DNA from: Corallococcus praedator
GTDB taxonomy: Bacteria; Myxococcota; Myxococcia; Myxococcales; Myxococcaceae
Assembly (NCBI RefSeq): GCF_003612125.1
Contig: NZ_RAWI01000039.1
Coordinates: 1 to 39,917 of the forward strand
DNA length: 39,917 bases
Direction of reading: 5' to 3'
Part shown: positions 7,578-31,370 of the stretch, piece by piece
Layout of the letters: each line of letters starts with the position of its first letter
Position numbering within the stretch: position 1 is the first letter of the stretch
Position numbers and translations under genes: made by a program
Notes under the pieces: generated by a model
What the model saw: only the letters and a program-made list of their open reading frames with translations
Database searches by the model: none
Told to the model about the DNA's origin: nothing

Positions 7578-8000
7578 TCAGAATGAAGCCTTCACCTCAC
7601 GCCAGCGCTCGCGCTGCGCTTCCCACGTCCCCGCGTGAGCAATGGCCCGAAGTCCTCTCTCGCTGAGGGGCTCCTCTCCATTCACGGCCTCGAGGAACAG
7701 CACTTCCTCCTGGATGTCCGGCGCCAGCAATTGCAAGTCCAACAGGTGCGTCACGCGCGCCCGGGTAAAGCCCAGTTGGCCAGCGACGTCCGCCGCGCTC
7801 GCCACCAGTCCCCGCTCAATGGTTGCTTCCACATGGTGCGCCAGGGCCAGCATTCGCGCGGCGTGCGCTGGCCGTCGCGCCACCTCTCGCGGCGGGGGTC
7901 GCGCCCCCTCTCGGAAGCCCACCTTCGCCCGACGCACGCGGTGGAACTGCGCGCTGATGAGGCCAGCCTCCGTCGGCCAAGACTCGGGGCTCGCGCTCAC
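7578..8000 (-). CDS. ParB/KorB-like HTH protein paired with serine recombinase
   Basis: A 140-aa DNA-binding protein. After an N-terminal basic part (FHRVRRAKVGF, then RRPAHAARMLALAHHVEATI) comes a helix-turn-helix like those of ParB/KorB: VASAADVAGQLGFTRARVTH, followed by LLDLQLLAPDIQEEVLFLE. Its GTG start at 8000 overlaps the recombinase stop as GTGA, so it is translationally coupled to that gene. In other bacteria genes of this type accompany the DUF2924/serine-recombinase module. A role as accessory DNA-binding or directionality protein for the recombinase is plausible but not demonstrated by the sequence. Confidence 0.75.
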   Translation of the reverse strand: MSASPESWPTEAGLISAQFHRVRRAKVGFREGARPPPREVARRPAHAARMLALAHHVEATIERGLVASAADVAGQLGFTRARVTHLLDLQLLAPDIQEEVLFLEAVNGEEPLSERGLRAIAHAGTWEAQRERWREVKASF

Positions 8001-9550
8001 GCCGCCACCTCCTTGCGCCCGGGCGTCGCGGGTTCACCGGCATGGGCAAGGTGCACATCCACGCGATCCGTGTCCTCGTCCACCACGACCCGGCCGACGA
8101 GGGCCTGCAGCAGGCGACCCCGGTTGGCGGCCGTGAGGGCGTCCCACACCGCGTCGAAGTCCGCCAGGGCCTGGGCCACCCACGCCGCCTCCAGTTTCTC
8201 CCCCTCCATGGCATCCAGGGCGCTCTCCACCTCCGCCAGCCGCTTCTTCATGCCGACGGCCTCCTCTTCCGCGGCCGTCAGCTTCTCCTCGACGAGGCGT
8301 CGGGCTGGGCCCTCCAGCTTCGAGAGGGAGTCCACCCACTTCGCGGACTCCCCGGAGCGCTTGGCCAGGTCCTTCGGGAGCTGCGCGCGCTCGGCGTGCA
8401 GGGCCTTGTGCTTCTCCTCCAGCCGCGCCGTGAGGCGGGCGTGTACCTGTGCCGCAAAGCCCCTACCTACCGAGACTTCCCGCAGCCGCGCGACGACGAA
8501 GTCCTCCAAGGCGGCTGCCGGAATGGGAGAGGCCCGGCACCCCTCCTTCCCCTTTTTGTCCCGGGTGACGCAGCGGTAGTAGCGGTACTCGCGCGTGCCC
8601 TTGCGCGTGGAGCCGGGCGTCATCGCCTCGCCGCACAGACCACACCGCAAGAGTCCCCGCAGCACGTAGTCGGGGTTGCGCCCGTGGTACTGGAGGCCGG
8701 GGCCTCGGCCCTCCAGCATGTCCTGCACCCGCTGGAAGGTGCTCCTGTCCACAATGGCCGGGTGCTCGCCTGGGTGCGTCTCGTCTCCGTAGGGAACGAA
8801 GCCCGCGTACAGGGGGCTCCTCAAGAGGCGCAGCACATCCTGCGTCGTCCACTTCCGTGCCGCGCGCGTGGCACCGCTCTGGGCCTCGTACCGCTTTGTC
8901 TTGCGCCCCGTCTCATTGAGGAGGCGCGCCACCGCCGAGGCCTGCTGGTGCTGGAGGTACAGCTCGAAGGCCTCCCGCACCACCACCGCCTCGTACTCAT
9001 TCACCACGAGGCGCTTGTCCTTCACCTCGTAGCCCAGCGGCGAGCGTCCTCCCGTCCACTTCCCCTTGCGCCTCGCGGCGGCCACCTTGTCCCGCGTGCG
9101 CTCGGAAATCATCTCGCGCTCGAACTCGGCGAAGCTCATCAGCATGTTCAACGTCAGCCGCCCCATGGCGTCCGCCGTGCTGAAGTTCTGCGTCACCGAG
9201 ACGAAGGAGGCACCCGCCGCGTTGAAGCGCTCCATGACTTTCGCGAAGTCGAGGAGGCTGCGGGAGAGGCGGTCCACCTTGTACACCACCACCACGTCCA
9301 CCCGGCCCGCATCCACGTCCTGCAGCAGCCGCTGGAAGGCGGGCCGCTCCATGTTCGCGCCGGTGAAGCCGCCGTCGTCGTAGCTCTCATCCACCAACAC
9401 CCAGCCGGGCTGGCGCTGCACGTAGGAGATACAGGACTCGCGCTGGGCGTCCAGCGAGTTGAATTCCATCTCCAGGCCCGCCGCCGTGGACTTGCGCGTG
9501 TAGACGGCGCAGCGCTTCGCGTCCGAGGGCGGAGACTTGCTCTTCCTCAT
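7997..9550 (-). CDS. Large serine recombinase (site-specific integrase)
   Basis: A 517-aa member of the resolvase/invertase superfamily. The catalytic domain (about 13-165) has the nucleophile Ser21 in YTRKS, followed by DAQRESC, and the arginine motif VDRLSR (92-97). The recombinase DNA-binding domain (about 170-290) carries PLGY and SPLYAGF. A zinc ribbon follows with C303, C306, C327 and C338, then a charged coiled-coil region (about 370-450). These are the parts of a complete, probably active enzyme that would join or release DNA at att sites. The start ATG overlaps the stop of the preceding small gene (ATGA). It is the most likely integrase of this element; att sites were not identified. 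Confidence 0.92.
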   Translation of the reverse strand: MRKSKSPPSDAKRCAVYTRKSTAAGLEMEFNSLDAQRESCISYVQRQPGWVLVDESYDDGGFTGANMERPAFQRLLQDVDAGRVDVVVVYKVDRLSRSLLDFAKVMERFNAAGASFVSVTQNFSTADAMGRLTLNMLMSFAEFEREMISERTRDKVAAARRKGKWTGGRSPLGYEVKDKRLVVNEYEAVVVREAFELYLQHQQASAVARLLNETGRKTKRYEAQSGATRAARKWTTQDVLRLLRSPLYAGFVPYGDETHPGEHPAIVDRSTFQRVQDMLEGRGPGLQYHGRNPDYVLRGLLRCGLCGEAMTPGSTRKGTREYRYYRCVTRDKKGKEGCRASPIPAAALEDFVVARLREVSVGRGFAAQVHARLTARLEEKHKALHAERAQLPKDLAKRSGESAKWVDSLSKLEGPARRLVEEKLTAAEEEAVGMKKRLAEVESALDAMEGEKLEAAWVAQALADFDAVWDALTAANRGRLLQALVGRVVVDEDTDRVDVHLAHAGEPATPGRKEVAA

Positions 9551-9750
9551 GGTCCCTCCGGCCCCTCTGTCGTCGGCGGCGGCACCGATTCGACGCTCGA
9601 GGACTGCTTCGGCCCGGAGAGCTGCTCCGCGACGGCCACCAGCCGCTCCAGGTTGTTGTTGAGGCGCGTCAGCTCGCGGATGAGCTGCGGCATCGTCCCC
9701 TCGTAGAAGCGCTGCCCCATGTGCGTCTGGAAGAAGGCGGGGCCGCTCAT
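9547..9750 (-). CDS. Small conserved protein of the DUF2924/recombinase module
   Basis: A 67-aa protein reading FFQTHMGQRFYEGTMPQLIR then a helical segment with RLNNNLERLVAVAEQL. It overlaps the DUF2924 gene upstream and the recombinase downstream by four bases each (ATGA at both junctions), so all three should be translationally coupled. Small proteins of this form are known between DUF2924 and serine recombinase genes in other proteobacteria; their function is unknown. Confidence 0.75.
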   Translation of the reverse strand: MSGPAFFQTHMGQRFYEGTMPQLIRELTRLNNNLERLVAVAEQLSGPKQSSSVESVPPPTTEGPEGP

Positions 9751-10304
9751 GGCGTCACCGTCTTCGAGCCGCCGGACTTGAGTCCGAAGAAGGAGAAGCC
9801 ATTCCAGGCCGTGCCCGTAATCAGCTTCGCCACACTGGAGAGGCTGCGGTGAAGCTGGCCCTCGTATTCAATTCCGCCCTCGCGCACCAGCACCTGGTGC
9901 TGCGTCCCCTTGAACACGCGCGTCAACACCGTGCCCGGCGGCGGCAGGCGCGCGTCACGCCCATCCACAGCGGCCGCGCGCCCGTCAGCAGCGGCTGGAT
10001 GAGGCGGAGCTGAGGGCCTCGTCTCCTCCGCCTGCCGCATCCTCCAACGCTCGGGCAGCTTGTCGCCCAACTCCGAGATGCGTGCGACAGCGCGTGCGGA
10101 GAGGCTGCCTTCAGCCAGCTCCTGAATCCGGAAGGCCAGGCGCTTCTTCAGGTAGTCCCGGTTGCGGCTGCGCGTGGGCTCTCCGTACAACTCCAGGTAC
10201 TTCTCCGCCAGCTCCGGCACTGACATGCTGGCCAGCGCGGCCAGTTGCTGTGGCACGTCCGCCAGCTCCTTGCGCGCGGCCCGCGCAGTCCCCTTCTTCG
10301 CCAT
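9747..10304 (-). CDS. DUF2924 domain protein
   Basis: A 185-aa protein of the DUF2924 family. The hallmark N-terminal part is visible (LAALASMSVPELAEKYLELY, then GEPTRSRNRDYLKKRLAFRI), and so is the C-terminal part (GTVLTRVFKGTQHQVLV, GIEYEGQLHRSLSSVA, TAWNGFSFFGL). The ATG at 10304 has AAGGAG eight bases upstream. An earlier in-frame ATG at 10403 also has GGAGG and overlaps the preceding stop, so a longer form with 33 extra residues is possible. DUF2924 proteins regularly travel with serine recombinases in phage-like islands; their biochemical role is unknown. Stop and next start overlap (ATGA). Confidence 0.85.
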   Translation of the reverse strand: MAKKGTARAARKELADVPQQLAALASMSVPELAEKYLELYGEPTRSRNRDYLKKRLAFRIQELAEGSLSARAVARISELGDKLPERWRMRQAEETRPSAPPHPAAADGRAAAVDGRDARLPPPGTVLTRVFKGTQHQVLVREGGIEYEGQLHRSLSSVAKLITGTAWNGFSFFGLKSGGSKTVTP

Positions 10305-10395
10305 GGTGGTGTCTCCTTCGTCCGGGGCAGCACGCCCTCGGGCGAAAGCCATGGACGCTCTGTCCCCAAAAGAAGACAAGTCGAGAGTCTGCGGC

Positions 10396-10584
10396 TCAGC
10401 CATGCGCGCCCTCCTCCGCCCCCCACGCGGGCGGCTGTCGTTGTGGCTGTGCCCGCCGACGCAACCACAACTCCCAGAGGGCATCGGCGAGGACATCCAC
10501 CGCGGCCTCGTGACGCCGGAGCTGGTGGTGAGGCACATCAGTCGCATCTGCCGGAGGCCCGGGCTTCCCATCCACACCCGTCAC
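10396..10584 (-). CDS. Small unknown protein coupled to the primase-helicase
   Basis: A 62-aa protein starting at a GTG that overlaps the primase-helicase stop (GTGA), which implies translational coupling. The central helix (RRHEAAVDVLADALWELWLR) looks like real protein; the ends are rich in Pro, Gly and Arg. No domain is recognised. Confidence 0.55.
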   Translation of the reverse strand: MTGVDGKPGPPADATDVPHHQLRRHEAAVDVLADALWELWLRRRAQPQRQPPAWGAEEGAHG

Positions 10585-13500
10585 GAAGCCACCTCCTCGG
10601 CGCTGCCTTCGTCATGGCCACGCCAACGCCACCCGCGGCTTGCGTCTTCAGCATGCGGGAAGTCCTCCGCGGAGATGAAGGGGGCCTTTGAGACATCAAT
10701 CACTAGGGCGCACCGGCGCAGGGCCTTGCCGGCAAAGCAGACGCGCTCACTGGGCGAGAGGACATACTCTCCGGCGCGGTGGTTCTCGTGAATGAGGCGT
10801 CGCAGTGCCTTCGTGTCCACCAACTCCCCTCGATAGTCGATGCGCTTGCAGTGCGCGCGGTAGGCGTCGTAGGCGGATTCCAGGTGGAGGCACAGGCGCC
10901 CATCGTCGAAGGCATAGTGGACGCGGTGCTTCAATTCGCCCTGGATCGCCATGACACCCAGCATTTGGATGAAGGCATCCAGGGCATTGCGGACGCCCGT
11001 CTCTTCCTCGAGGACGTCCTTCAGCACCGCGTCCACGGCCTCGCGGGCCCCCAAGTCCTCGGGCAACGCATAGCCGCACTCCTTGGCGAACTCCTCGAAG
11101 AGGTGGATGCCCAACAGCATGGCCGTCACGTTGTCCGCTACACGCGGAGGCGCGTCCCTCTTCTCAAGGAGGACTTCCGCCACGGCACGGACGACGCGGT
11201 AGTCCGCCTCGAAGTCCCGTCCCAGGCAGAATTGAATGTAGCGAGGGGCGAAGAGGGCGAGGTTGACGGACGTCAGCTTACGAAAGGCCGCCCGGCAGTC
11301 GCGGCGCTGCACCGTCGCCTTCTCCGGGTTGACGGGCAGGAGGCGCTCCACGAGGGCCGCCTCCGTGGGACGCGTCTCTCCGCAAATACACAGCGGCGCC
11401 TGCAGCCGGTAGCTCACCACCGACAAGTCCGGGCGCCCCCGCTCCTCCGTCTCTCCTCGGTAGAGGCGCCGCATGTAGCGGTGCACCAGGTGGAGACGGG
11501 GCAGCGGCATGTCACCGGGCTTGTACTCGTCCACCACCACCGGCACCGAGCGCGTGGCGGACAGCAACTTCACCAGGGCGAACTCCGTCTCCGTCACGCT
11601 GAAGGCATCCGAGGAAGGCACGCCGAAGAGGGGCCAGAAGACTTCTGTGCACGTGCTCGACTTGCCACTGCCTTGCGTCCCATAGGGGAAGAGAAGCGGG
11701 AAGGAACCCACCTTCTCCATGAAGCGCGGCTTCATTGGCGTGGCGAAAAACCACCCCAGAATGGGCAGCACCACCTGGGGCGTATTGATTTTGAGCAAGT
11801 ACTCGAAAACCGTGCTCGCCACGTCATGGAAGGCGTCGTCGTCCGCGGCCTCGTAGCGGATGCGCGATTCGAGCGTCGTCCCATTCGGCAAGTACGCCAC
11901 GGGGGAGGCCGCGAGGAAGCCCTCCTTCCCGATGGTGCACCCGGGCGCCACCCATACGTGGTGCGCCCCCCGCTTGAAGTCCCCCAGGACGGTGGTGCCC
12001 GGCAGCCTCGGCACCGCACGCCGCGCCACCGAGCGCAGCAGTCCCTGCACGTTGTTGTCGCTGCCCGTCCATTGCGTGTGGACGGAGGGCAGGTGGTGCA
12101 GCAACTCCTTGCGCGAGTTGAAGGCCCGCCGCGGCAGCCGCGCTCCTTCCACCTCGGCTCCCTTGTCCGTGCGGACGTCCCCGAGGAAAACCTCCCCCTC
12201 CTCGGTTTCCACGAGGGCCGTCGGCGTGAAGGTGAAGGAGGAAATCGCCTTCGCCTCACCCCGCTGCGTCACCGTGTAGTAGCAGTACGCGTCCTCGTAC
12301 ACCTCGCCGTCGATGGTGTCGTCACCGCTGCTGCTCTTCCCTCCTCCCTTGGTGTCCGCGCCCTCTCCTGCGGCCTGGGTACGCACGGCGCGGGCCATGG
12401 ACAGCCGAAGCTTCTGCGCCGCCAGGCCCGTGCGCACCTCCAGCAGCGCCAAGTACTTCTCCTGCGCGGACGGAGGACGGTGGGCGATGGCCTCCAGGAT
12501 GGGCTTGAGACGGTACTCCACGTCCTGGGCCGGCACGGTGGCCAGCGCCTCCACGGCCTTCTCGACGTCGAAGACGACGTCGTACAGCTCGCAACGCACG
12601 TCCGGCTCGCGGTTGACTCGGCAGAAGCCCAGTCCCTGGAGCGAGTGGCAGGGCGGCGCCACGGTGCTGTCCTCGCGAGCCGTGGCCACCACCTTCTCGT
12701 AGGCCTTGCGGATGTAGCCGACACCGTCCCGGCCCTTCAGCTTCCCGAGGCCCCGGCGGTCGTACTCGAGGACGAGTTCAGTGATTTCGTCCAGGCCAAG
12801 CCCCTTGTGCACGAAGAAGCGCACCATGTTGAAGATGGCAACGCTCCGGTCCTCCGCCCCCTGCTCCCATAGGCGCTGCACCGGGCCGCACATCTCCACC
12901 GGATGCGCCCAGTCGTACTCCCCCGTCGCCGTCCGGCGAGCCTTCACCGTCCCCTGCGGTGCCGAGGTAGAGGGCGCTAGCGGCAGCGCCACCTGGGCCG
13001 GACGCGCCAGATGCGCCACGGGCTGCTGCACCGGGGCACTCAGCAGGCGCGCCAGGAGGCCGGCGTCTTCCACGCGCTCGAAGCCGGCCAGCGCCCGAGC
13101 TGCTCGGTGAGGCCGCTCCGCTGTCCCCGCACCCTTCCGGCTGACGGTGCCCACCACCTTGATGATGCGCGCCACGTCGTGGATGGAGTCCACGTGCACG
13201 CGCTCGGACTGGAAGCGAGCGCGCACCTCGGCCTCGAAGGCCTTCAGGCCCGCCTGCACACGCTCCTGAGCCTCGCCCGCCAGGGACTGCGACGGGAGGG
13301 CGAACCACAGCTGCGCCCCGTTGCCGCTCATCATCAGCCGCGGGCGGGCAAGCCCCTGCGCTTCGCACCAGGCCGCGGCGGCTTCCGCCACCTGGAGCGT
13401 CAGCGAGAGCTCGTCCTCGGTGCTGGCCGTGTCCTTGGGACGCACGGGGTCGAGGTCCACCACCGTGGCCGTCACGACCTCAATGTCCTTGCTCCCCGCC

Positions 13501-13772
13501 CCAGTCCGCAAGGGGCGCAGGACGTTGGGGGCGAGCTCCAGCAGGCGCCGAGGCCGCGGCTGAATGCCCACGTACACGTTGCCATCGGCATTGGCTGCCG
13601 CGCAGGCCGCGACGAAGGCTTCCTCGTCGTCGAAGAAGCCCAGGCCGACGAGGCCCCCGCCGCCTGGGCGGATGACGCGGACTTCGCTTACGCCGTGCTG
13701 TGCGTGCGCCAGCCACCGCCAGGTGGCGAGGATGGCGTCGGGGTTTGGAATGGTGTCAGAAGGTGTCGTCAT
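10581..13772 (-). CDS. Primase-polymerase / helicase fusion (phage replication)
   Basis: A 1063-aa replication protein. The N-terminal third resembles archaeo-eukaryotic primase/polymerases: DLD at 106-108, SGNGAQLWFALP at 149-160, and VHVDSIHDVARIIKVVGTVS starting at 192. A primase C-terminal-like region follows (about 285-365) and then a probable metal site, C375-x8-C384-x9-C394. After an acidic linker comes a P-loop ATPase: Walker A GTQGSGKSS (698-706), Walker B VPVVVDEY (743-750), and the arginine-bearing ETRPTEAALVERLLPV segment near 799. This arrangement suits priming and unwinding at a phage or plasmid origin. The gene starts 26 bp after the SF2 helicase in the leftward operon, so both would be expressed together. 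Confidence 0.85.
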   Translation of the reverse strand: MTTPSDTIPNPDAILATWRWLAHAQHGVSEVRVIRPGGGGLVGLGFFDDEEAFVAACAAANADGNVYVGIQPRPRRLLELAPNVLRPLRTGAGSKDIEVVTATVVDLDPVRPKDTASTEDELSLTLQVAEAAAAWCEAQGLARPRLMMSGNGAQLWFALPSQSLAGEAQERVQAGLKAFEAEVRARFQSERVHVDSIHDVARIIKVVGTVSRKGAGTAERPHRAARALAGFERVEDAGLLARLLSAPVQQPVAHLARPAQVALPLAPSTSAPQGTVKARRTATGEYDWAHPVEMCGPVQRLWEQGAEDRSVAIFNMVRFFVHKGLGLDEITELVLEYDRRGLGKLKGRDGVGYIRKAYEKVVATAREDSTVAPPCHSLQGLGFCRVNREPDVRCELYDVVFDVEKAVEALATVPAQDVEYRLKPILEAIAHRPPSAQEKYLALLEVRTGLAAQKLRLSMARAVRTQAAGEGADTKGGGKSSSGDDTIDGEVYEDAYCYYTVTQRGEAKAISSFTFTPTALVETEEGEVFLGDVRTDKGAEVEGARLPRRAFNSRKELLHHLPSVHTQWTGSDNNVQGLLRSVARRAVPRLPGTTVLGDFKRGAHHVWVAPGCTIGKEGFLAASPVAYLPNGTTLESRIRYEAADDDAFHDVASTVFEYLLKINTPQVVLPILGWFFATPMKPRFMEKVGSFPLLFPYGTQGSGKSSTCTEVFWPLFGVPSSDAFSVTETEFALVKLLSATRSVPVVVDEYKPGDMPLPRLHLVHRYMRRLYRGETEERGRPDLSVVSYRLQAPLCICGETRPTEAALVERLLPVNPEKATVQRRDCRAAFRKLTSVNLALFAPRYIQFCLGRDFEADYRVVRAVAEVLLEKRDAPPRVADNVTAMLLGIHLFEEFAKECGYALPEDLGAREAVDAVLKDVLEEETGVRNALDAFIQMLGVMAIQGELKHRVHYAFDDGRLCLHLESAYDAYRAHCKRIDYRGELVDTKALRRLIHENHRAGEYVLSPSERVCFAGKALRRCALVIDVSKAPFISAEDFPHAEDASRGWRWRGHDEGSAEEVAS

Positions 13773-13798: not shown

Positions 13799-15316
13799 TC
13801 AATGCACGTCGGCGTTGGCCGTCACTCCCAGCACCGTGGCGTACTGCTGGCGGCGCTCCGCATGGTGGCGCCGCAAGAGCGGCACCTTCCCGTCGACGAA
13901 GTCGATGAGGACGGCGCTCTTCTTCTCCGGGTGGGGACGCATGAGGCGTCCGAGACGCTGGACGGTGCGTCCACGCGCGCGGCCGGGGTACGCCAGGAAG
14001 ACGCGAGAGAGGCGCGGCAAGTCGAGCCCCTCATCCGCCAGGCTGGTGGCCACCAGGACACGGACGCGCCCGGCGCGAGCCTGGTCCAGGAGTGCCTTGC
14101 GCACCTCGCGCGGCACTTCGCTCGTCAACGCCGCAGCCGACAAGCCCGTGGCCGATAGCCGCTGCGCCAGCAGCTCGCAGTGGTCCACACGCCCCGTGAG
14201 GACAAGGCACAGGTGGCCTGCCCACGCTTCGCGCGCCACGGCGCCGAGGACGAGGTCATTGCGCGCCTTGTCCTCCGCCAGCGCCTCCAGCATGGGCGCG
14301 TAGTCCGCAGCGCGGCAGTACGGGTAGTCGAAGGCCGTCTCCACGGCGCGCACCTCCGGCACCACCAGCACTCCGCGCGCGACGAGGTCCTCGTGCTTCA
14401 CCACGGCCAGAGGCGCGCCCAGGTAGAAGCGCAGGAGAGGCGTCAGCCCGTCCTCCCGTTCGGGCGTCGCCGTCAGGCCCAGCCGGTAGCGCGCCGGGCA
14501 GCGATCCACGATTCGATGGAAGGCGCTGGCGGCAATGTGGTGGGCCTCGTCGAGGACGAGCAGACCGAAGTGATGGAGGAAGGCGTCGAGCTTCGCCTCG
14601 TCCCATCGAGAGAGGGACTGGACGACGGCGACGGTGACGGGCCGCACCTCCTCTTCCCCGGCGCCCACGAGGCCGGCCACCAGGCCCAGGCGCTCGCGGA
14701 TGTGCTCTCGCCACTGCTCCGCCAAATCCAAGGTGTGGACGAGGATGAGCGTCGGCGTACGCAGGCGGGCAATGGCCCCCATGGCCAGGACGCTCTTACC
14801 TGCCCCGCATGGCAGCACCGCCGTCCCCTGGGTGGCCTTCGCCAGCCGCTCCACCGCCTCGGCCTGGTAGTCGCGCAGCGACACCTCCGGAAGCTTCGGC
14901 AGGCGCTTGGGCGGCAGCACCCGTGCGTCCTCGAAGGACAGCGTCAGGCCCGCCTCGTCCGCAGCCCGGCGCAGCAGGTGAATGGCCCCGCGCGGCAGCA
15001 CCAGCTCCCGCTCCTGCTGGCGGAAGAAGTACAGCGTCTGAGGCTCCGCCCCCGGGCGCTTGCGCAGCCGTACCAGCTTCCAGTACGCGGGGTTGGGCAG
15101 AGAGAGCACCCGGCAGAGGCCCTCCAGCACCTTGGGCGGCACGTCGCCCGCCGCGAGCCGCAGCCCGGCATCCACTCGCACGCGCAGCGTCCGCTTGGCC
15201 GTGGACGCGCTCGCGTTGCGCACAGGCGCGGACGGCGCGGCCCCCACGCTGGAGTCCTGGGTGCGAGAGACAACACGTCCCCCGTCCCCGTGCATTTCGG
15301 AGAAGTCTTCCACCAT
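13799..15316 (-). CDS. SF2 DNA helicase (RAD25/UvsW-like)
   Basis: A 505-aa DEAD/DEAH-type helicase. An N-terminal domain of about 140 residues precedes the Q-motif region (LRDYQAEAVERL). The motor motifs are complete: Walker A LPCGAGKSVLA (168-178), DEAHH (256-260), LTATPER (motif III), LVLTGRVDHCELLA (motif IV), VATSLADEGLDLP (motif V) and QRLGRLMRPH (motif VI). The pattern matches the XPB/UvsW group used in recombination-dependent replication and repair. The ATG at 15316 is preceded by GAGGAC. It stands between the putative ssDNA-binding protein and the primase-helicase in the replication operon. Confidence 0.9.
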   Translation of the reverse strand: MVEDFSEMHGDGGRVVSRTQDSSVGAAPSAPVRNASASTAKRTLRVRVDAGLRLAAGDVPPKVLEGLCRVLSLPNPAYWKLVRLRKRPGAEPQTLYFFRQQERELVLPRGAIHLLRRAADEAGLTLSFEDARVLPPKRLPKLPEVSLRDYQAEAVERLAKATQGTAVLPCGAGKSVLAMGAIARLRTPTLILVHTLDLAEQWREHIRERLGLVAGLVGAGEEEVRPVTVAVVQSLSRWDEAKLDAFLHHFGLLVLDEAHHIAASAFHRIVDRCPARYRLGLTATPEREDGLTPLLRFYLGAPLAVVKHEDLVARGVLVVPEVRAVETAFDYPYCRAADYAPMLEALAEDKARNDLVLGAVAREAWAGHLCLVLTGRVDHCELLAQRLSATGLSAAALTSEVPREVRKALLDQARAGRVRVLVATSLADEGLDLPRLSRVFLAYPGRARGRTVQRLGRLMRPHPEKKSAVLIDFVDGKVPLLRRHHAERRQQYATVLGVTANADVH

Positions 15317-15403: not shown

Positions 15404-16141
15404 TCACGGACCGAAGGGGTCCACGTCCACGACGCTCTCCGCGGAGTATTCGGCCACGAGGGAGTCGACGAAGGCGCGCGCCAGCTCGCCCTTCGACGCC
15501 GGGATGTCGCGAATGCGCTGCACGCCGAACTTCTGGAGGAACCTGTCTACCGCCTCGCGCGGCAGCGCCTTCAGGGCCGTGGCCATTCCTTGCGCGAGTT
15601 TGACGTCGACGGGCTCCCCCGCCTTCGGACTGGAAGTGGCTGCGGGCGACGTGCCGCTCGCCGCCGCTGCCGCCTCGGCCGCATACAGTTTCGGCAAGTC
15701 ATGCAGACGCAGCGCCTGGAAGTCCGTCACCTCCGCCGGGGACAACTGCTTCTCCGGCAGGAGGGAGTACGTCGTCTTGGGGTCCTTCGCCGCACCATGG
15801 CGTTTCACCTCGAAGGCCCACGTCTCCAAGCCGTACTTCGCCCGCACCTGGAGCAGGTTGGTGAAGAAGGTGGAGGCCTGCTCCATCACCTTCACCTCGC
15901 GCGTCCCGTAGACGGCGACGTTGAGGGCCACGCGCAGCGAGGGCTTGTGCCCCTGGGCCTTCAGCTTCTCGTCGAAGGGGACGAACTTGTTGTCGAGGAA
16001 AACCACCTCGCGTGGGTGCGGCTCCCCAAGGAAGACGACGACGGCGATGTCCCCGTCGTTCGCCAGCTTCAACCAGGCGCCGCCCTGCTGCTCATGCTGC
16101 TTGGCCATCGCGGCCGTCTGCTCCCACATGTTGCTGGCCAT
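15404..16141 (-). CDS. Putative phage ssDNA-binding protein
   Basis: A 245-aa protein. The N-terminal half resembles OB-fold single-strand binding proteins of the gp32 kind: WLKLANDGDIAVVVFLGE followed by VVFLDNKFVPF, with an aromatic-rich region further on (TFFTNLLQVRAKYGLETWAF). A Lys/Gly stretch KRHGAAKDPKTTYSLLP follows. The C-terminal third has an Ala/Ser linker and an acidic end (SVVDVDPFGP), as is usual for ssDNA-binding proteins. The family call is tentative; the position just before two helicase genes supports a replication role. It begins six bases after the upstream stop. Confidence 0.5.
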   Translation of the reverse strand: MASNMWEQTAAMAKQHEQQGGAWLKLANDGDIAVVVFLGEPHPREVVFLDNKFVPFDEKLKAQGHKPSLRVALNVAVYGTREVKVMEQASTFFTNLLQVRAKYGLETWAFEVKRHGAAKDPKTTYSLLPEKQLSPAEVTDFQALRLHDLPKLYAAEAAAAASGTSPAATSSPKAGEPVDVKLAQGMATALKALPREAVDRFLQKFGVQRIRDIPASKGELARAFVDSLVAEYSAESVVDVDPFGP

Positions 16142-18395: not shown

Positions 18396-18681
18396 GTGGC
18401 AGTCGGTGGCAGGCCGTGGCAGCCCTATCTGCCACCCTCTTCTTCTATAAATTCAATATCTTATCTTGAAGTGACAGAGGTGGCAGTGTTTCAAAAAATA
18501 CCCCTACGTAGCGGGCGCGCGCATATTTGAATGGCACTATTCAATAGGGGGTCAAGAGAACACTCTCCCTAAGCGGCATTACCCCAGAAAACACTGCCAC
18601 CACCGCCACCTCCGCCACTCCTGCGATTTCACTAGGGAATTTCGTGGCAGCCTTTTGAGTCGAGCCTGCCACGGCTGCCAC
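18396..18681. repeat. Cluster of GTGGCAG/CTGCCAC heptamers (iteron-like)
   Basis: Nine exact heptamers occur in 286 bp: direct at 18396, 18406, 18416, 18480 and 18644; inverted at 18429, 18594, 18666 and 18675. CCGCCAC variants lie at 18603 and 18612. The first three are spaced exactly 10 bp, and 18594/18603/18612 and 18666/18675 exactly 9 bp. An AT-rich segment lies between the left and right groups. Phased short repeats next to AT-rich DNA are typical of initiator-bound origins or multi-site operators. Confidence 0.6.
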
Positions 18682-18827: not shown

Positions 18828-18869
18828 GATTTCTTGTCCCAAATCAAAGGGATGGGGTGCTTTTAGGGT
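18828..18869 (+). promoter_or_regulatory. Motif R, inverted partner of motif L
   Basis: Plus-strand copy of the element at 16692-16734, with CTTGTCCCAAATC and GGGGTGCTTTT. It ends 33 bases before the first ATG of the rightward operon, so a promoter or operator role for that operon is likely. Confidence 0.5.
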
Positions 18870-18902: not shown

Positions 18903-19514
18903 ATGGCCCTTACCCACCACCTCCAGCCCACCCCCGCCACACAACGTCCGCCTGGCGTAACGTGCGAAGCGTATGTCCGCGGCGAGGGCAAGCACTGCCT
19001 GCACTACCGTCCTGGTGGTGGCTGCACCCTGCCCGGCGTGGGCACCTGCACCGAGTGGCTGAAGGTGAATCGGAAGGCCCGGCCTCATCGTGACGTGGCC
19101 GCGCCGCCCGCCCCCGTGCCTCCGGCGAAGTCCGCTCTGGTTGCGGTGGATCTCTTCGGCCATCCGCTGAGCGAGGCTGGCTCGAAGAAGATCGCCCCAG
19201 CCCCCGCCTCCAAGCCCGCGCCACCAGATGCGTCTCCCGATGTGAAGAAGCTGGACGCGGAGGCCCCGCTCTCCGGCCTGCGCGGCCTCACCGACGAGGA
19301 CATCGCCAGCTTCAAGGCCCTCAACGCCGAGGTGTGCTTCCGCTCCGAAACCTACGGCGAAGTGTGGCTCGTCCCGGCCTACACCGGCCAGGCCCGGAAG
19401 GAACTCACCCCGGAGCACGCCGCCACCCTGGTGCGCGTCCTGTCTGCCTTCCCAGGCTCTCGCGTCATGTCCTTCGAGAAGCGGCCGGCCTCCGCGGACG
19501 AGGGGGCGCCATGA
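18903..19514 (+). CDS. Unknown phage protein with Cys-rich N-terminus
   Basis: A 203-aa protein. Residues 20-55 contain a Cys/His pattern (C-x11-C-H, GGGCTLPGVGTCTEW) that could form a zinc finger. A Pro/Ala linker follows (APPAPVPPAKS), then DLFGHPLSE, a second linker, and a C-terminal domain of about 80 residues starting LSGLRGLTDEDIASFKALNA. No family is recognised. It is the first gene of the rightward arm, directly downstream of motifs A and R, so it is probably an early gene. Its stop overlaps the next start as ATGA. Confidence 0.7.
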   Translation: MALTHHLQPTPATQRPPGVTCEAYVRGEGKHCLHYRPGGGCTLPGVGTCTEWLKVNRKARPHRDVAAPPAPVPPAKSALVAVDLFGHPLSEAGSKKIAPAPASKPAPPDASPDVKKLDAEAPLSGLRGLTDEDIASFKALNAEVCFRSETYGEVWLVPAYTGQARKELTPEHAATLVRVLSAFPGSRVMSFEKRPASADEGAP

Positions 19515-19648
19515 GCGTGGCTTTCGCCTGTGAAACACACGCATGGGGCCGCTCCCTGCACCCGCTTCGACTTGATGTCTCGCTCGGAAAGAGCGTGATG
19601 ACTGTCTCGCGACACGCCACTGCATCGGCCCGGAGGCCCACGCCATGA
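19511..19648 (+). CDS. 45-aa protein linked by overlaps to both neighbours
   Basis: This small gene starts inside the stop of the previous gene (ATGA) and ends inside the start of the next (ATGA), filling the gap exactly. GAGGGGG lies just upstream of its ATG. The product is basic, with no hydrophobic segment or recognised motif. The double overlap is the main evidence that it is translated. Confidence 0.55.
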
Positions 19649-20820
19649 GCGGACTGCGAAACGAACACCTCTCGTTCAGCCGGCTGAGCCGCTTCGAGGC
19701 CTGCCCGCTGTCCTACAGGCTCCACTACCTCGAAAAGCGCACCGCCGAGCCCGGCGTCCCCCTGCGCTTCGGCAAGGCACTGCACGCCGTCCTCGAGCGA
19801 CTCCTCCAGGAAGTCGTCGACACCGAGTACGTGGGCCCGCTCTCCGAGGAGCGCGCCCTCCAGCTCTACCGTGAAGCATGGACTGCCGAGGGCCTCTCCG
19901 GCCTGGACCTCTTCCAGCAGGGCCTCGGCATCCTCCAGGACTTCGTCCGCCAGCAAGGCCGCGTGGACTCCCGCGACATCCTCGGCATCGAGAAGGAGTT
20001 CCGCTTGCCGGTGGGGCCCTTCACCGTCCTGGGCTTCATCGACCGCGTCGACTGGGTGGACGACGAGACGGTCCACGTCATGGACTACAAGTCCAACCAC
20101 CAGCTCTTCACCCGCGAGGAGCTGGACTCCAGTCTCCAGCTCAGCCTCTACGCCCTCGCCGCGCGCCGCATGTGGCCCTGGGCGAAGAAGGTGCGCCTGT
20201 CCATGTGGATGCTGCGCCACGGCGTGCGGCAGGAGACGACGCGCACCGAGGAGCAGCTGGAAGCCGCCCTCGCGTACGTCGAGACGCTGGGCCAGCAGAT
20301 GGAGACGGCGGAGGCCTTCCCCGCCCGCCTCAACCCCAACTGCGCGTACTGCGACCACCGGCGCGACTGCCCCACCTACGCCCGCGCGCTGACGGGCCAG
20401 CGTGAAGTCGTCTGCAGGGACATGTCCGACTTGGAGTCCGTCGCTCGCGAGCGTGAAGAAGTCGCCCAGCTCGCGAAGATTCTCGGCGCGCGCAAGGCGG
20501 AGCTGGAGGGCGTCCTCCGAGCCCACCTCGCTGAGCAGGACGAGCTCGTCCTCGCCGGCACGCGCTACCGCATGTTCAACACCACCAGCCTCGATTACCC
20601 GCTGGAGCCCACCGTTGCGGTGTTGGCCCAGGCCACCGGCCTCCCTCGTGAGGAGCTGGTGCAGCGCCTCGCCAGCGTCGAGAAGAAGGCCCTCGACGCG
20701 CTGCTGAAGGACGCGGGCAAGCGCCTGGGCACCGCACACGTCGCGCTGCTGAAGGCCGAGCTGGACTCCCTCGCCACCAAACACCACTCGCCCAGGTTCT
20801 GGGCCAAGGAGGTCGCATAG
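19645..20820 (+). CDS. Cas4/RecB-like PD-(D/E)XK exonuclease with predicted Fe-S cluster
   Basis: A 391-aa nuclease. The N-terminal [20 protein letters not shown] is the usual start of the RecB/Cas4 group and supplies C20. GKALHAVLE (43-51) carries the motif-I histidine. The catalytic core has GFIDRVD (130-136), MDYKS (146-150) and the QLSLYALA motif (165-172). C233, C236 and C242 with C20 could hold a 4Fe-4S cluster, as in Cas4 and AddB. A charged C-terminal extension of about 140 residues follows. It lies in a rightward cluster with two more nucleases, suggesting phage recombination or DNA end processing rather than CRISPR adaptation; no CRISPR array is present. Confidence 0.85.
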
Positions 20821-21476
20821 TGCTCGCTCATCCTGCTTCCGACACCACCCCTGTCTCCGCTCTCCGCCAGCCGCTCTTCCCCGGCCTCCCGCCGCACCTG
20901 AGGACGCTCTGCTTCGTCGACCTGGAGACGACGGGCCTGGACGCCTCCCGGCACGAGGTGCTGGAGGTGGCGGTGCTTCGCGTCGACGCCCGCAGCCTCC
21001 AGGTGCTGGCGGAGTACGAGGCCCGCGTGCAGCCCACCCGGCTGGCCGACGCCCACCCCGAAGCCCTGGCCGTGTGCGGCTACTCCGACGAGGAGTGGCG
21101 AGACGCCCTGCCCCTGCAGGAGGTTCTCGCCACCGTGACGCCTCTCCTGGCGGGCACCCTCGTCGCCGGCCACAACACCAGCTTTGACTGGGCCTTCCTC
21201 GTCGAGGGCTACCGCCGCACCGAGCTGAACCTGCCCAGCGTCGACTACCACCGCCTCGACACCGCCAGCCTCGCATGGCCGCTGCTCGCCACGGGCGAGG
21301 TGGAGTCCCTCTCCCTCAACGCCCTGGCCAAGCGCTTCGGCCTCCACCGGCCCACGCCCCACCGAGCTATGGCGGACGCCCGCTGCGCGCTGGAGGTGGC
21401 CCGCTGCCTCGCCGTGCGCATGGCCCGTGGCGGGCACATGGAGCGGCTGCTGGAGGAGTCGGGAGGTGTCTCGTGA
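20820..21476 (+). CDS. DnaQ-like 3'-5' exonuclease (DEDDh)
   Basis: A 218-aa single-domain exonuclease. Exo I is VDLETTG with D34 and E36, Exo II is HNTSFDW with D123, and Exo III is HRAMADA with H181 and D186. This is the DEDDh set used by proofreading and RNase T-type enzymes. The GTG start shares one base with the preceding TAG, and the stop overlaps the next GTG. Length and lack of other domains fit a phage recombination or repair exonuclease. Confidence 0.88.
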   Translation: MLAHPASDTTPVSALRQPLFPGLPPHLRTLCFVDLETTGLDASRHEVLEVAVLRVDARSLQVLAEYEARVQPTRLADAHPEALAVCGYSDEEWRDALPLQEVLATVTPLLAGTLVAGHNTSFDWAFLVEGYRRTELNLPSVDYHRLDTASLAWPLLATGEVESLSLNALAKRFGLHRPTPHRAMADARCALEVARCLAVRMARGGHMERLLEESGGVS

Positions 21477-22625: not shown

Positions 22626-23549
22626 ATGGCCCAGAAGAAGCCCCTCAAGAAGCTGGGGCGCCCCACCAAGGCCGAAGGCCCTCGGCTGCCCCATGCCGAG
22701 GTGGACAAACTCCTCGTGGAAGGCGAGGAGGTGCCCACCACCCGGGGCCGTGTGAAGCGGCGCTTCCCCTCCCTCCGCGAGCTAGCTGAGCGCTTTGGTG
22801 TCGCCCACAGCGCCGTCGCCAAGTACGCCCAGCAGCACGACTGCCTCGGCCGCCGCAAGCGCCTCCTCGCGGGTGAGCCGGCGGACGAGGTTGTCGAGCC
22901 TCTCGAGGCACCACCGACTCCACCGCCCGCGAAGCGCAAGACGGGCCGCCCCCGCAAGTCCGAGGAGCCCGCGCTCCCGCGCCAGGAGCTGGACCGCGCC
23001 CTCGTCTTCGGCGAAGTGAAGACGCTCCCCGACGGCTCCACCATGACGAGCTACGCCTCGTACCGCGAGTTGGCCGAGCGCTTCGGTGTCGCCACCTCCC
23101 TCGTCGCCAACTACGCGAAGGAGCACAACTGCCTGCGTCGCCGCGAAGAGGCCAAGACGCGCATCGCCACCAAGGCGGACCAGAAGCTCATCGAGCTGCG
23201 CGCCAACGCCATCGCCGTCTCCAAGGACGACGCACTGAAGATGATTGACGGCTATCTCCTCGGCTTCGAGGAGGCGCTGTCCGAGGGACGCGTGCGCGTT
23301 GACAACCCCACCGACTTCAACACGATGGTGAGGCTCAAGGAGTTCGTCATGGGCGGCGCTGACTCCCGGCAGGAGCTGCACGCCACCTTCTCGTTGGAGG
23401 GCCTCCAGGCCCGGCACGCCCAGGCCCTGCGCGCCGCGCGGGAGACGACGCCCGCCGAGCGCGGCGAGGTGGATGCGGAGGTGGAGAGCGGCGGCGACGT
23501 GGAGGTGGACGCCTCAAAGCACGACGGTAGTGGACCTGTACCAGCATGA
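22626..23549 (+). CDS. Terminase small subunit-like protein with two HTH repeats
   Basis: A 307-aa DNA-binding protein. Two parallel units each have an AT-hook-like start ([14 protein letters not shown]), an acidic helix ([15 protein letters not shown] / [15 protein letters not shown]) and a helix-turn-helix ([19 protein letters not shown] / [19 protein letters not shown]) ending QHDCLGRRK / [10 protein letters not shown] helical region ([19 protein letters not shown], then [19 protein letters not shown]) could mediate oligomerisation. Location upstream of terL supports terminase small subunit. The last 20 residues differ from the remnant at 24451, suggesting the C-terminus was replaced when the following cargo gene arrived. 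Confidence 0.6.
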
Positions 23550-23610
23550 AGAGCCCGCTCCCCGCTCGCACCAGCGAGGTTCCGATGGATCAGTACTAAG
23601 CTCTGCGCCC

Positions 23611-24378
23611 GTGAACCAGGAACGCAGCGCACAGGGGCAGCGACTTGAGGCCAGGGGGATCGGCCCTGCTGTTGTCGAACTCATCCGTTTGGCCAAGAGC
23701 CGCATCGTGCTCATCAGCCCCTACTTTCACCCCTGGGGGAGACTGGTCGAGGCTCTCATGGCGGCGCCCGCTCGCGGCGCTCGTGTCACGCTTGTCATCC
23801 GCGCGAACCAGCCATTCAACGAAAGGCGGCATTTGGCCCTACAGAAGTTGTCGACAGCCGGCGTGAGCATTCGCCAAGTGCCCTGGCTCCACCTCAAGAT
23901 GTATCTGAGCGACTCCGCAATCATCGAGACGTCAATGAATCTCGTTTTCAGTTCCATGGCAAAGGGGTACGAGACGGGCAGCCTCTACACTGTCCACGAG
24001 GCCCCCGTTGCTTATGCAGAGCGACGAGCCATGGTGAAGGAATGCGTCGAAGGCTCGGCGCCCTACTTGTTCGGTCACGCACCCTTGCCGGAGGTTAGGA
24101 GCATCGGAATAGCTCCCGGGTCACCGCCAAAGCTGCAGAGCTCACCCCATCATGGCGATGCGCATCCCCATGAAGAAACGCACCGTTCGCCTGCAGGGCC
24201 TGTCGCGAGTTCGCGCCGAAATAATCCTCGCGCCTATCAGCCATGGACGGATCAAGAGGACTCCCTCGCGCAGGACCTCTTCGCTCAAAAGGTGCCGTTG
24301 ATAAGCATCGCGCAGGCACTCCAGCGCACGCCCAAGAGCGTCTCGAAACGGCTCAAGCGCCTTGGAGTCATAGAGTGA
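23611..24378 (+). CDS. PLD-family nuclease-like protein with Myb/SANT-like C-terminus (cargo)
   Basis: A 255-aa protein with one phospholipase D (HKD) motif: H94, K96 and D101 in HLKMYLSD, followed by the usual small-residue region (ETSMNLVFSSMAKGYETG). Before it are IRLAKSRIVLISPYFHPWG and ARVTLVIRAN, typical PLD strands. A single HKD implies an active dimer, as in Nuc and BfiI. The last 45 residues (PWTDQEDSLAQDLFAQ, then ALQRTPKSVSKRLKRLG) resemble a Myb/SANT DNA-binding helix bundle. The GTG at 23611 is the best available start, without a clear ribosome-binding site. Sitting between terS and a terS remnant, it looks like inserted cargo; a DNA-cleaving defence role is inferred. Confidence 0.65.
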   Translation: MNQERSAQGQRLEARGIGPAVVELIRLAKSRIVLISPYFHPWGRLVEALMAAPARGARVTLVIRANQPFNERRHLALQKLSTAGVSIRQVPWLHLKMYLSDSAIIETSMNLVFSSMAKGYETGSLYTVHEAPVAYAERRAMVKECVEGSAPYLFGHAPLPEVRSIGIAPGSPPKLQSSPHHGDAHPHEETHRSPAGPVASSRRNNPRAYQPWTDQEDSLAQDLFAQKVPLISIAQALQRTPKSVSKRLKRLGVIE

Positions 24379-29188: not shown

Positions 29189-30152
29189 TGGAGTTGCTTC
29201 CGTCAAATCGGACACGGTCGGCGGGTTGAAGTCGCTAGTCAGAACTCGCGCAGGAAGCATATCTTCAGCACTGGGCTACTCCCACAGAGCACGCCTGCAC
29301 CGAAGCGGTGCTCTAGCATCTCGGCTATCATGTCACGCACCAGTTCGCCGGTGAGGCAGCCTCCGGTGGTAGCGACGAAGCGCATAGCCTCGCGATCGCA
29401 GCAGGCCAGCGCGAAGACAACCGTGACGCGCTCGCCGATCCACCAGCGAATCTCGAAAGCGTCCGAGCACCATCGTAGGTGACTCTTGAGAGGGGCCATC
29501 GTATCCTCGCGGGTGCGCGTTCCTATTCCGGCGTGCCAGAGGCCGGCAGCCTCCATCACCTCGGTACATGCGTTTGGCATTCACCCTTGGCTGCCCCTCG
29601 GAGAAAAGCTGCCGGTTCACCAGGGCCGTGATGCGACGGTCGCCATAGCTGGCCCGCGCGTCGGTGACGGGGCGAATCCGCGGCAGCAGCGCCTCATCGG
29701 AGCGATTGAGATAGTGACCAGGCCGTCTATGTGCTTCCGCGGTGGAGGACTGCCACCCGGAGTTGCTGGCGACGCCCAGGGCCTCGGCCTTCACCATGTG
29801 CCGCCCTTGGGCGGCAAGGCAGGTGGCGAGGTCCGCTTGGGGCGTGCCAACTTCAACGCCGCCTTTAGAATCTCGTTCTCCAGCTCCCGGTCCTGGGCCT
29901 GCAGTCAATCCACCGCGGACACCGGAACTACCGCCTCATCTGCTATCCTGGACATCTCCCTTCCTCCGACAGTCGCATCCAGCGGAACAACATGCTCGCC
30001 GACATTCCATAGCGACGAGCCCTCGAGGAGATGCTCTGTCCAGCCATCTCCGCCTGCGCCAGGGACCATTGATTCTCCTCGGCGCGGAATCGCCGACGAC
30101 GCTCGGGGCGGGCCGGCGGGATGACTCCCTCTTCGAGTGTCTTCGCGTCCAT
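29189..30152 (-). mobile_element. Degraded IS3-family (IS2-like) insertion sequence
   Basis: The left end TGGAGTTGC...TCAAATCGGACA resembles IS2-group ends and is nearly repeated at 32046. OrfA survives at 30152-29943 with a transposase HTH (RRRFRAEENQWSLAQAEMAG, then RRYGMSASMLFRW). OrfB is broken: one frame has LLPRIRPVTDARASYGDRRI and LVNRQLFSEG, another has SHLRWCSDAFEIRWW and VFALACCDREAMRFVATTGG. The C-terminal catalytic part is missing by internal deletion. The right end could not be located. It cannot transpose on its own. Confidence 0.75.
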
Positions 30153-30269
30153 CCCTAGGCGGCCCTATGCGTTGGAGAACTGGCCGTGCGAGCTGGGGGC
30201 CACACCAAACGGGGACTTGCAGGCTATTGGTACTCGGGCGAGTATGCTCGCCACAAAGGTGGACTACAC

Positions 30270-31370
30270 ATGTCTCTCGAAGAACAGATCAACACCCACG
30301 CCGCAAAAGTATCAACAACATCATACTCCATGTCCATCGGCGAATTGGTGTCGATGTACCGAGATGGCGAATTGGATTTACATCCTGAGTTTCAGCGTTT
30401 CTTCCGCTGGACGCCTGAGCAGAAATCCAGATTCATAGAGTCACTACTTCTAGGAATTCCGGTCCCCCCTATCTTCGTTACAGAGCGCAGCGACTCGAAG
30501 TGGGACGTAATCGATGGACTACAACGGCTCAGTACGGTTCTGCAGGTAATGGGCGAACTCAAGAAGGAGGATGGCACTTTCTATCCCCCCCTCGAGTTGT
30601 CTCGAACCCATTACCTTAGCGAGCTAAAAGGTGCGGCCTGGAAAAGCACTAATCCGACCCAGGAACTTCCTGAGTCTGCGAAAATTCGCATCAAGCGCGC
30701 TCGACTCGATGTAAACATCATCAAAAGTACGAGTGGGGACTTGGCTAAATATGAGATCTTTCAGCGCCTCAATACAGGGGGAGCGAAAGCCACAGATCAA
30801 GAGGTGCGCAATTGCCTTCTGCTGATGACGAACCGAGATTTCTTCACCTGGATAAGAGAGCTTGGTGCCCGTGACCATTTCAGGGCGTGCGTTCCGTTGA
30901 CGGATCGTGCTTTGGATGAGGCTTTCGATCTTGAACTGGTCGTTCGCTTCATTGTCCTGAGCAATGCCACTAGCGCCGAACTGAGTGCAATTGACGAGCT
31001 TGGCTCTTTTTTAACAAGCAAGATTCTCGAATACGCTCAAGATCCCAGCTTCAACCAAACCGCCAACGAGAGCGCCTTTGAGCTCGTGTTCAACTTCCTT
31101 TCGACACACTTAAATTCAGATGCATTCCGCCGGTTCGACAAGGCGCGCTCAAAATACACCGGCGCAATGCTCATTTCCTTGTTCGAAGTGGTCGCCGCTG
31201 GACTGGGGCATCAAATCCTTTTGGGCAAGCAACTCCCGAACTCAGGCGCACTGACCGTGGCCCATAAGGAACTTTGGTACGATGCAGCGCTAACACAGCA
31301 CGCAGGGAGCGGAGTACGCGCATCAACGCGAATCCCCAAGACAGTAGAGTACGGGCGCGGATGGCTCTAG
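30270..31370 (+). CDS. DUF262 protein (ParB/GmrS-like fold)
   Basis: A 366-aa DUF262 protein. The N-terminal domain has SIGELVSMYRDGELDLHPEF, FRWTPEQKSRFIESLLLG and the signature DGLQR (82-86), here with L where many members have Q. LNTGGAKATDQEVRNC follows at about residue 165. DUF262 domains bind or hydrolyse nucleotides in type IV restriction enzymes such as GmrSD and in defence operons. There is no DUF1524 nuclease domain; instead the gene overlaps a HEPN gene. The ATG at 30270 is preceded by AAGGTGG. Lower G+C than its phage neighbours and IS debris on both sides point to acquisition from elsewhere. Confidence 0.85.
   Translation: MSLEEQINTHAAKVSTTSYSMSIGELVSMYRDGELDLHPEFQRFFRWTPEQKSRFIESLLLGIPVPPIFVTERSDSKWDVIDGLQRLSTVLQVMGELKKEDGTFYPPLELSRTHYLSELKGAAWKSTNPTQELPESAKIRIKRARLDVNIIKSTSGDLAKYEIFQRLNTGGAKATDQEVRNCLLLMTNRDFFTWIRELGARDHFRACVPLTDRALDEAFDLELVVRFIVLSNATSAELSAIDELGSFLTSKILEYAQDPSFNQTANESAFELVFNFLSTHLNSDAFRRFDKARSKYTGAMLISLFEVVAAGLGHQILLGKQLPNSGALTVAHKELWYDAALTQHAGSGVRASTRIPKTVEYGRGWL

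Follow-up and report, generated by a model that had tools for sequence, protein, structure and literature searches.

The 286-bp array of short repeats at 18396-18681 (no strand assigned) of the DNA analysed here, a stretch of 39,917 nucleotides from Corallococcus praedator (contig NZ_RAWI01000039.1) that we call the window, is very probably the origin from which a temperate myxobacterial phage replicates, read by the phage's own primase-helicase, a protein of 1063 amino acids (10581-13772, minus strand). The support is computational: the array is conserved and partly dyad-symmetric, the C-terminal half of the phage protein tracks the class of repeat, and its predicted fold is that of iteron-reading initiators. 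A candidate phage replication origin had already been proposed from the letters of this DNA, without database searches (the sequence-only reading), and in view of the covariation, the conserved array and the architecture this is the best-supported reading.

All nine exact GTGGCAG/CTGCCAC sites that had been described are present within 286 bp, at 18396, 18406 and 18416 (plus strand), 18429 (minus), 18480 (plus), 18594 (minus), 18644 (plus) and 18666 and 18675 (minus). The steps between them are 10, 10, 13, 51, 114, 50, 22 and 9 bp. The 10-bp group of the sequence-only reading is therefore exact, whereas its two 9-bp groups shrink to one exact pair, the further 9-bp steps (18471-18480 and 18594-18603-18612) depending on sites with one mismatch. 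With these sites included, the array consists of 12 sites in the order >>> < >> (centre) <<< > <<. The window as a whole holds 16 exact sites where 10.3 are expected, and the seven outside the array are scattered (the contig ends inside the phage). The cluster is indeed far above chance, as had been claimed, since the biggest one within 286 bp of any of 200 order-2 Markov sequences has three sites; of the five top-ranking 7-mer clusters in the window (350-bp span), the remaining ones reach five copies, with an overlapping 7-mer, or four. Rfam gave nothing at gathering score, and the array region has no match to named-phage DNA, where close records may be missing from the set searched.

The sites fall into a left arm (18396-18486, plus strand), with three direct sites at 18396/18406/18416, an inverted one at 18429, a one-mismatch site at 18471 and an exact one at 18480, and a right arm that mirrors it (18594-18681, minus strand), with 18594, the one-mismatch sites 18603 and 18612, the oppositely oriented 18644, and 18666 and 18675. 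An AT-rich stretch had been placed between the arms. The middle, between the inner sites (18487-18593), has in fact 52% AT compared to 34% in the window, but the most AT-rich spacer, with 68%, lies inside the left arm (18436-18479, no strand assigned), where it may serve as a melting site. Mirror symmetry was assessed for 26 arrays by finding the centre around which the largest number of sites have a partner on the opposite strand, with a tolerance of 1 bp, and comparing the result with 500 permutations of gaps and strands; the distant loci L107, L108, L110, L115, L117 and L118 stand outside this set. Symmetry at 20/500 or better was obtained for 24 of the 26 arrays, where it has to be kept in mind that motifs and mismatch limits were picked from the arrays themselves and that many loci are related, so that the arrays are not independent. 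The array of locus L065 has all 12 of 12 sites mirrored (0/500), and symmetry was not significant in L106, a weak array (2/6), and in a Microcystis phage (4/11).

Relatives of the gene encoding a 203-aa protein (18903-19514, plus strand), the kept right-hand neighbour of the array, occur in 26 of 96 genomes of the family, with 40 matching places listed. The 20 closer places with usable flanks, taken with up to 10 kb on each side, form together with the window a set of 21 compared loci, and all 20 agree with the window in gene order and strands for those genes that are detectable (7 to 13 of 13). Before the 203-aa gene, 12 of the 21 loci carry GTGGCAG arrays with 8-13 exact sites (class A) and nine carry GTGGACA arrays, six of them in a layout near that of class A (class B) and three in another layout and with a more distant initiator (class C). 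The sequence-only reading had stated beforehand that it would be refuted if relatives sharing the gene order did not keep the heptamers. This check came out in its favour: 11 of the 20 loci keep the array and nine have another repeat in the same place. Order, strands and spacing of the sites are conserved in all 12 class A arrays. In six whole genomes picked for holding class A phages, the pattern of three GTGGCAG sites occurs 15 times, never farther than about 0.5 kb from the gene that encodes the 203-aa protein in these phages, and the reversed pattern, as a control, not once.

The class B repeat also has counterparts further away. Eight distant loci (L106, L118, L107, L108, L110, L113, L115 and L117) have GGACAG clusters in the same gap, with 6-11 copies over 1.2-4 kb, many of which are not GTGGACAG; L109, with an initiator of 44% identity, and L111 have one GGACAG each in the gap and no cluster. 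Because GGACAG clusters are common in the distant loci, class A is probably the derived form. A further element, TACCCCTACGTAGC (18499-18512, plus strand), stands beside the left inner sites of the window. Its CCCTACGT core is found at this place in 12 of 12 class A loci and, reversed and on the right side, in five of six class B loci; it was not found in class C or in the distant loci searched. At a comparable place, the arrays of a halovirus and an archaeal plasmid described below have GGGGTGTACGTAGC and GGGGTGTTACGTGA, respectively. A TGTCCC element at 18830-18845, before the 203-aa gene, lies at a similar distance in the five relatives compared, with varying flanks, and is perhaps a promoter; near this place most of the distant relatives carry GGACAG on the minus strand.

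The gene that goes with the repeat class was sought by aligning 16 shared open reading frames (ORFs) and counting the columns in which class A and class B have no residue in common; positions in these alignments follow stop-to-stop numbering, which is 3 above protein numbering. The 1063-aa protein has 52 such columns, from position 589 on, compared to five in ORF 9747, two in 16695, one each in 13799 and 16148 and none in the other eleven, the C-terminal rows coming from 10 of 12 class A and five of six class B loci (L053 is cut by the fetched end and L057 by the contig, and in L067 the gene is absent on the contig). Positions 1-580 hold none of these columns, 581-860 hold 17 and 861-1066 hold 35, where the maxima of 300 label shuffles were 2 and 4 for the latter two parts; since such shuffles ignore relatedness, they are a guide and not a probability. 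In protein numbering, 25 of 126 positions in 905-1030 separate class A from class B as opposed to 15 of 264 in 641-904, based on eight class A and six class B rows, one of the latter (L119) lying on another contig than the array of its genome. Moreover, 24 positions, including R928, Q936, A1000 and C1021, are special to class A in comparison with 13 rows treated as GGACAG users, among which the genome of L112 shows no cluster at its array region (L111) and from which L109, without a cluster, was omitted.

The same picture emerges at the DNA level, where positions discriminating A from B are limited to 10501-12300, with 22, 19, 9, 12, 4 and 1 per 300 bp. All other scored 300-bp bins between 9.6 and 23.7 kb show none, including those in the alignable part of 12.3-17.5 kb and rightward to approximately 23.5 kb, 17.5-18.9 kb including the array being hardly alignable. 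On phylogenetic trees the A/B label changes once for the C-terminal part (and also once for the whole protein), three times for the N-terminal part and two to five times for other genes; rows covering under 40% of columns were dropped, and few rows are left for g16148 (6), g21616 (9) and the terminase (10). The association between the array and the distal end of the initiator has thus been kept, although the genes lying between them were reshuffled. Among 20 further ORFs of the window (three of them repeats; up to seven class A and five class B phages), seven are present in too few phages, and of the rest only 9747 stood out, the 12 columns of ORF 6932 being reached in 21 of 200 shuffles. Three possible binders of the array had been named at the outset. 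Covariation points to the primase-helicase, while the 203-aa protein has no discriminating column and the 113-aa protein (29239-29580), which is weakly transposase-like, has no counterpart in the compared phages.

That the primase-helicase is the sole strongly covarying protein also bears on the possibility that the array is an operator, at which a phage repressor or activator controls two divergent operons and the mirror arms represent two divergent promoters. The position between divergent gene blocks, a promoter-like match at 18471-18499 (one, where 0.3 are expected) and the presence of a helix-turn-helix (HTH) protein in the phage would all suit such a function. However, this HTH protein (22626) and the 203-aa protein have no discriminating columns, the two columns of the weakly sigma-like protein 16695 were reached in 82 of 300 shuffles, and genes further out show nothing significant except for 9747 beside the initiator (seven of the 20 are in too few phages). 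We therefore regard an operator as improbable, although the initiator may have a dual role and regulate its own expression at the array.

Host genomes with more than one of these phages are informative with respect to a host-encoded reader. Two genomes (G037 and G054) hold one class A and one class B phage, and three others (G062, G064 and G078) hold one class A and one class C phage each; together with one A+A genome, five of the six two-prophage genomes differ in class, in a tally that covers G037, G054, G062, G064, G078 and G075 and does not extend to further genomes with multiple matches, such as G029 and G061. The different origin classes within a genome perhaps reflect incompatibility. 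Because G037 and G054 hold one phage of each of classes A and B, the reader of the sites is probably phage-encoded. This makes it very improbable that the sites are boxes of the host DnaA or of another host protein, which would be identical for both phages. The class B repeat CTGTCCACA presumably resembles DnaA boxes of the actinobacterial type, but class A lacks one base of the DnaA-box-like core, and the covarying gene is encoded by the phage. Clustered short repeats also occur at partition and packaging sites, but a centromere or pac site is hardly credible here, as none of the 24 window proteins that were scanned against one or more libraries has a ParB-like match and as discriminating columns are absent from both the terminase-like protein and HTH protein 22626, which is terminase-small-like.

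The origin reading gains from the predicted structure of the 1063-aa protein, which suggests a primase of the archaeo-eukaryotic type joined to an initiator helicase like SaPIbov1 Rep and Cch and ending in a C-terminal winged helix. The primase part (residues ~5-246; 13035-13760, minus strand) has an archaeo-eukaryotic primase fold, with Z scores of 12.1 to the catalytic subunit of yeast primase and 12.0 to RepB'. The helicase part (residues ~511-904; 11061-12242, minus strand) has the Walker A motif GTQGSGKSS, and residues 511-1041 match Cch of the staphylococcal cassette chromosome mec (SCCmec) and SaPIbov1 Rep (Foldseek E 1.0e-6 and 1.3e-6; Z 13.5 and 12.5, where Z scores in this middle range may be due to an arrangement that is widespread). 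Cch and SaPIbov1 Rep also top the Foldseek list for the whole model, being the sole matches below E 0.001 (three chains). The proposed reader of the iterons is the winged-helix region (residues ~905-1030; 10683-11060, minus strand), where the A/B-separating positions are dense. When modelled alone, the C-terminal part ends in a winged helix, and its matches include the winged helices of the origin recognition complex (ORC) and Cdc6 and other DNA-binding domains. At the sequence level, the search of Pfam with the 26-member initiator family gave nothing above the curated cut-off for the window protein and weak matches elsewhere, and a sequence search of solved structures gave weak matches only. 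The structure of the origin-binding domain of phage P4 is absent from the structural matches, which is no evidence against a shared fold.

Several points weigh against this interpretation. It is drawn from covariation and architecture, and the covariation maps to one single A/B change on the C-terminal tree, so that it represents an association kept through recombination rather than many independent switches. The 3' neighbour of the initiator (9747-10577) also has five discriminating columns (1/300 shuffles) or four (5/200), which is most simply explained by the probable exchange of a linked block. The symmetry of the window array itself is modest, with eight of 12 sites mirrored (19/500), and several relatives of the initiator are without a detectable array. 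Confidence in the AlphaFold2 models is middling (mean predicted local distance difference test score, pLDDT, 65.7 for the whole protein, with 55-88 in its winged-helix blocks, and 64 for the C-terminal part), and the root-mean-square deviations of the matches to Cch and SaPIbov1 Rep are large, with 7.6 and 9.4 Å over approximately 400 residues. Finally, the initiator gene and the candidate origin are some 4.6 kb apart, the origin not following its gene immediately as it does in Staphylococcus aureus pathogenicity islands (SaPIs).

Taken as an origin, the array would provide the iterons for a self-loading primase-helicase whose specificity has changed in nature. Covariation suggests that the C-terminal winged helix binds the heptamers. 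Two helicase rings may then assemble face to face on the mirror-image arms, as the symmetry and the comparison with SaPI Rep suggest, the AT-rich spacers would melt, and the N-terminal primase domain would initiate DNA synthesis bidirectionally. Where GTGGACAG replaces GTGGCAG, in what would be a second version of the origin, the C-terminal half also comes in a second version.

The window is the whole of contig C825 of a 10.5-Mb genome and contains a prophage with genes for a serine integrase, a helicase, an SSB-like (single-stranded-DNA-binding) protein, exonucleases, a tyrosine-integrase-like protein, terminase-like and portal proteins and head proteins. The array sits between divergent gene blocks. 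Replication-type genes had been thought to lie on one side of it only, which is incorrect: on the left there are, besides the initiator, a DEAD/ResIII helicase gene (13799-15316, minus strand) that adjoins the initiator gene on the same strand and the gene of the SSB-like protein (15404-16141, minus strand; phrog_14578), and on the right the genes of a PD-(D/E)XK exonuclease (19645-20820, plus strand) and a DnaQ-like exonuclease (20820-21476, plus strand). The large serine recombinase of the phage integrase type is encoded at 7997-9550 (minus strand). A 333-aa protein and the 203-aa protein have no match among named phages, again with the reservation that close records may be missing from the set searched. 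A phospholipase-D-like (PLD-like) ORF (23473-24378), a GmrSD-like ORF of low GC content (30186-31370) and a 465-aa ORF (35950-37347) are likely cargo, since at the thresholds applied the other phages of the comparison contain nothing that corresponds to them.

Relatives of the C-terminal 522 residues of the initiator are not restricted to bacterial phages. By tblastn, the primase of Halorubrum virus CGphi46 is 27% identical over 99% of this part (E 3e-33) and a DUF927 protein of a Natronococcus occultus plasmid 26% identical over 97% (E 1e-28). The halovirus has ATGTTAC eight times immediately behind the primase gene, with eight of 12 sites mirrored (2/500), and the plasmid has TGTGAAA eight times approximately 1.4 kb before the gene, in a stretch without a listed gene (the gene table is incomplete), with eight of 11 sites mirrored (1/500). 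In 20 shuffles, any 7-mer reached at most six copies for the halovirus and four for the archaeal plasmid. Approximately 13 kb of each of the Pseudomonas phages Lana, PMBT3 and UAntarctica contain no clear cluster (the best 7-mers have 4-5 copies, shuffles 3-4), L157 has no mirrored array and L158, a 4.8-kb contig, no cluster. An IMG/VR contig with an initiator of 47% identity has GTGCACA seven times (L156:368-657), by eye in an order resembling one arm, the mirror test not being significant (44-96/500). In a Microcystis phage whose primase shows weak similarity, TCGGACA occurs eight times (L129:10287-10518), in an unmirrored cluster.

In comparison with known systems, the initiator helicase fold with a C-terminal DNA-binding domain is, judged by prediction, common to the window protein and to SaPI Rep and SCCmec Cch, and the short-iteron origin of the respective replicons has its putative counterpart in the array. 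According to one account (PMC7581432), SaPI origins consist of short repeats that are read by the C-terminal domain and to which the protein apparently binds as two hexamers. The same account describes the primases of SaPIs as archaeo-eukaryotic and SaPI5 Rep as a fusion of primase and helicase, whose gene is followed by a putative origin. Since this is the case, the pairing of an archaeo-eukaryotic primase with iterons was already known and is not new in itself. There are also differences: with its terminase-like, portal and head genes, the element of the window is not a satellite but a phage, its SaPIbov1-like helicase is fused to a primase, and its arms mirror each other and enclose the AT-rich spacers. 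Origins of phage-inducible chromosomal islands (PICIs) are described, in PMC6092414, as two sets of iterons around an AT-rich region; the window likewise has two sets of sites, but its most AT-rich spacer is inside the left arm and the middle has 52% AT. The halovirus CGphi46 and the N. occultus plasmid share with the window a related C-terminal part of the initiator and mirrored arrays near the gene, but differ in the letters of the repeats (GTGTAACAT and TGTGAAAT, respectively), in the outer layout and in the place of the array relative to the gene.

ORF904 of plasmid pRN1, which comprises an archaeo-eukaryotic primase, a superfamily 3 (SF3) helicase and a winged helix, has a similar order of domain types to the window initiator. 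According to the pRN1 paper (PMC4234260), pRN1 is thought to start at a stem-loop, stem-loops are suggested for such primase-SF3-winged-helix proteins in general, and the winged helix of P4 alpha is noted to bind repeats. By comparison, the window protein goes with an iteron array, as in SaPIs. No earlier account of such an origin in myxobacterial phages was found among the listed matches in the open-access literature, and the text of a review of Myxococcus phages (PMC6070905) does not contain the word 'replication'.

If our reading is true, a group of myxobacterial phages has a defined origin and initiator, satellite initiators of the SaPI/Cch type are linked to the replication module of a phage, an archaeal virus and an archaeal plasmid, and P4-like arms can also serve in mirrored form. 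Classes A and B would provide a natural pair of closely related winged helices, whose sites seem to comprise seven and eight bases, respectively, and which make the specificity code of self-loading initiators directly testable. The origin might also offer a starting point for a replicon that works in myxobacteria, for which pMF1 was, in the abstract of a paper from 2011 (PMC3235114), the sole autonomously replicating plasmid recently identified.

In layout, each arm resembles ori1 of phage P4. Its type 1 repeats at 9310, 9320 and 9331 (minus strand), 9353 (plus) and 9396 and 9406 (minus) form three direct sites, one inverted site, 43 bp and two direct sites, and the left arm of the window has three direct sites, one inverted site, 42 bp and two direct sites, one of which is a one-mismatch site. 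The gaps are 10, 11, 22, 43 and 10 in P4, 10, 10, 13, 42 and 9 in the left arm of the window and 9, 10, 12, 44 and 9 in those left arms of class B where no site of the six is missing, whereas the right arm of the window deviates more from P4. The type 1 iteron of P4 reads GGTGAACAG and thus differs from GTGGCAG, but P4 GTGAACAG and class B GTGGACAG are alike in seven of eight bases. P4 has a single such arm at ori1 and a separate crr, while in the window two arms face each other. As to a second region like crr, the window, which ends inside the phage, offers the seven scattered exact sites outside the array. P4 alpha, with a TOPRIM primase and a D5-type helicase, is unlike the window initiator, and a weak match in the Walker A region (hhalign probability 9%) gives no detectable kinship between the two. 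Given this lack of detectable relationship and the TOPRIM primase of P4 alpha, we suggest, by analogy, that the window array works like P4 ori1 without being a member of the P4 alpha/ori1-crr replicons. More tentatively, and with greater doubt than confidence, one could assume that P4, the myxobacterial prophages and the archaeal virus and plasmid share one origin blueprint, in which a winged helix would read a GTG(N)ACA-like core in arms that combine direct sites with a single inverted one, an AT-rich spacer and an inner group spaced by 9-10 bp. Such an arm might be used singly or mirrored and together with unrelated primases, and the myxobacterial phages would then display a natural change in which iteron and winged helix are matched.
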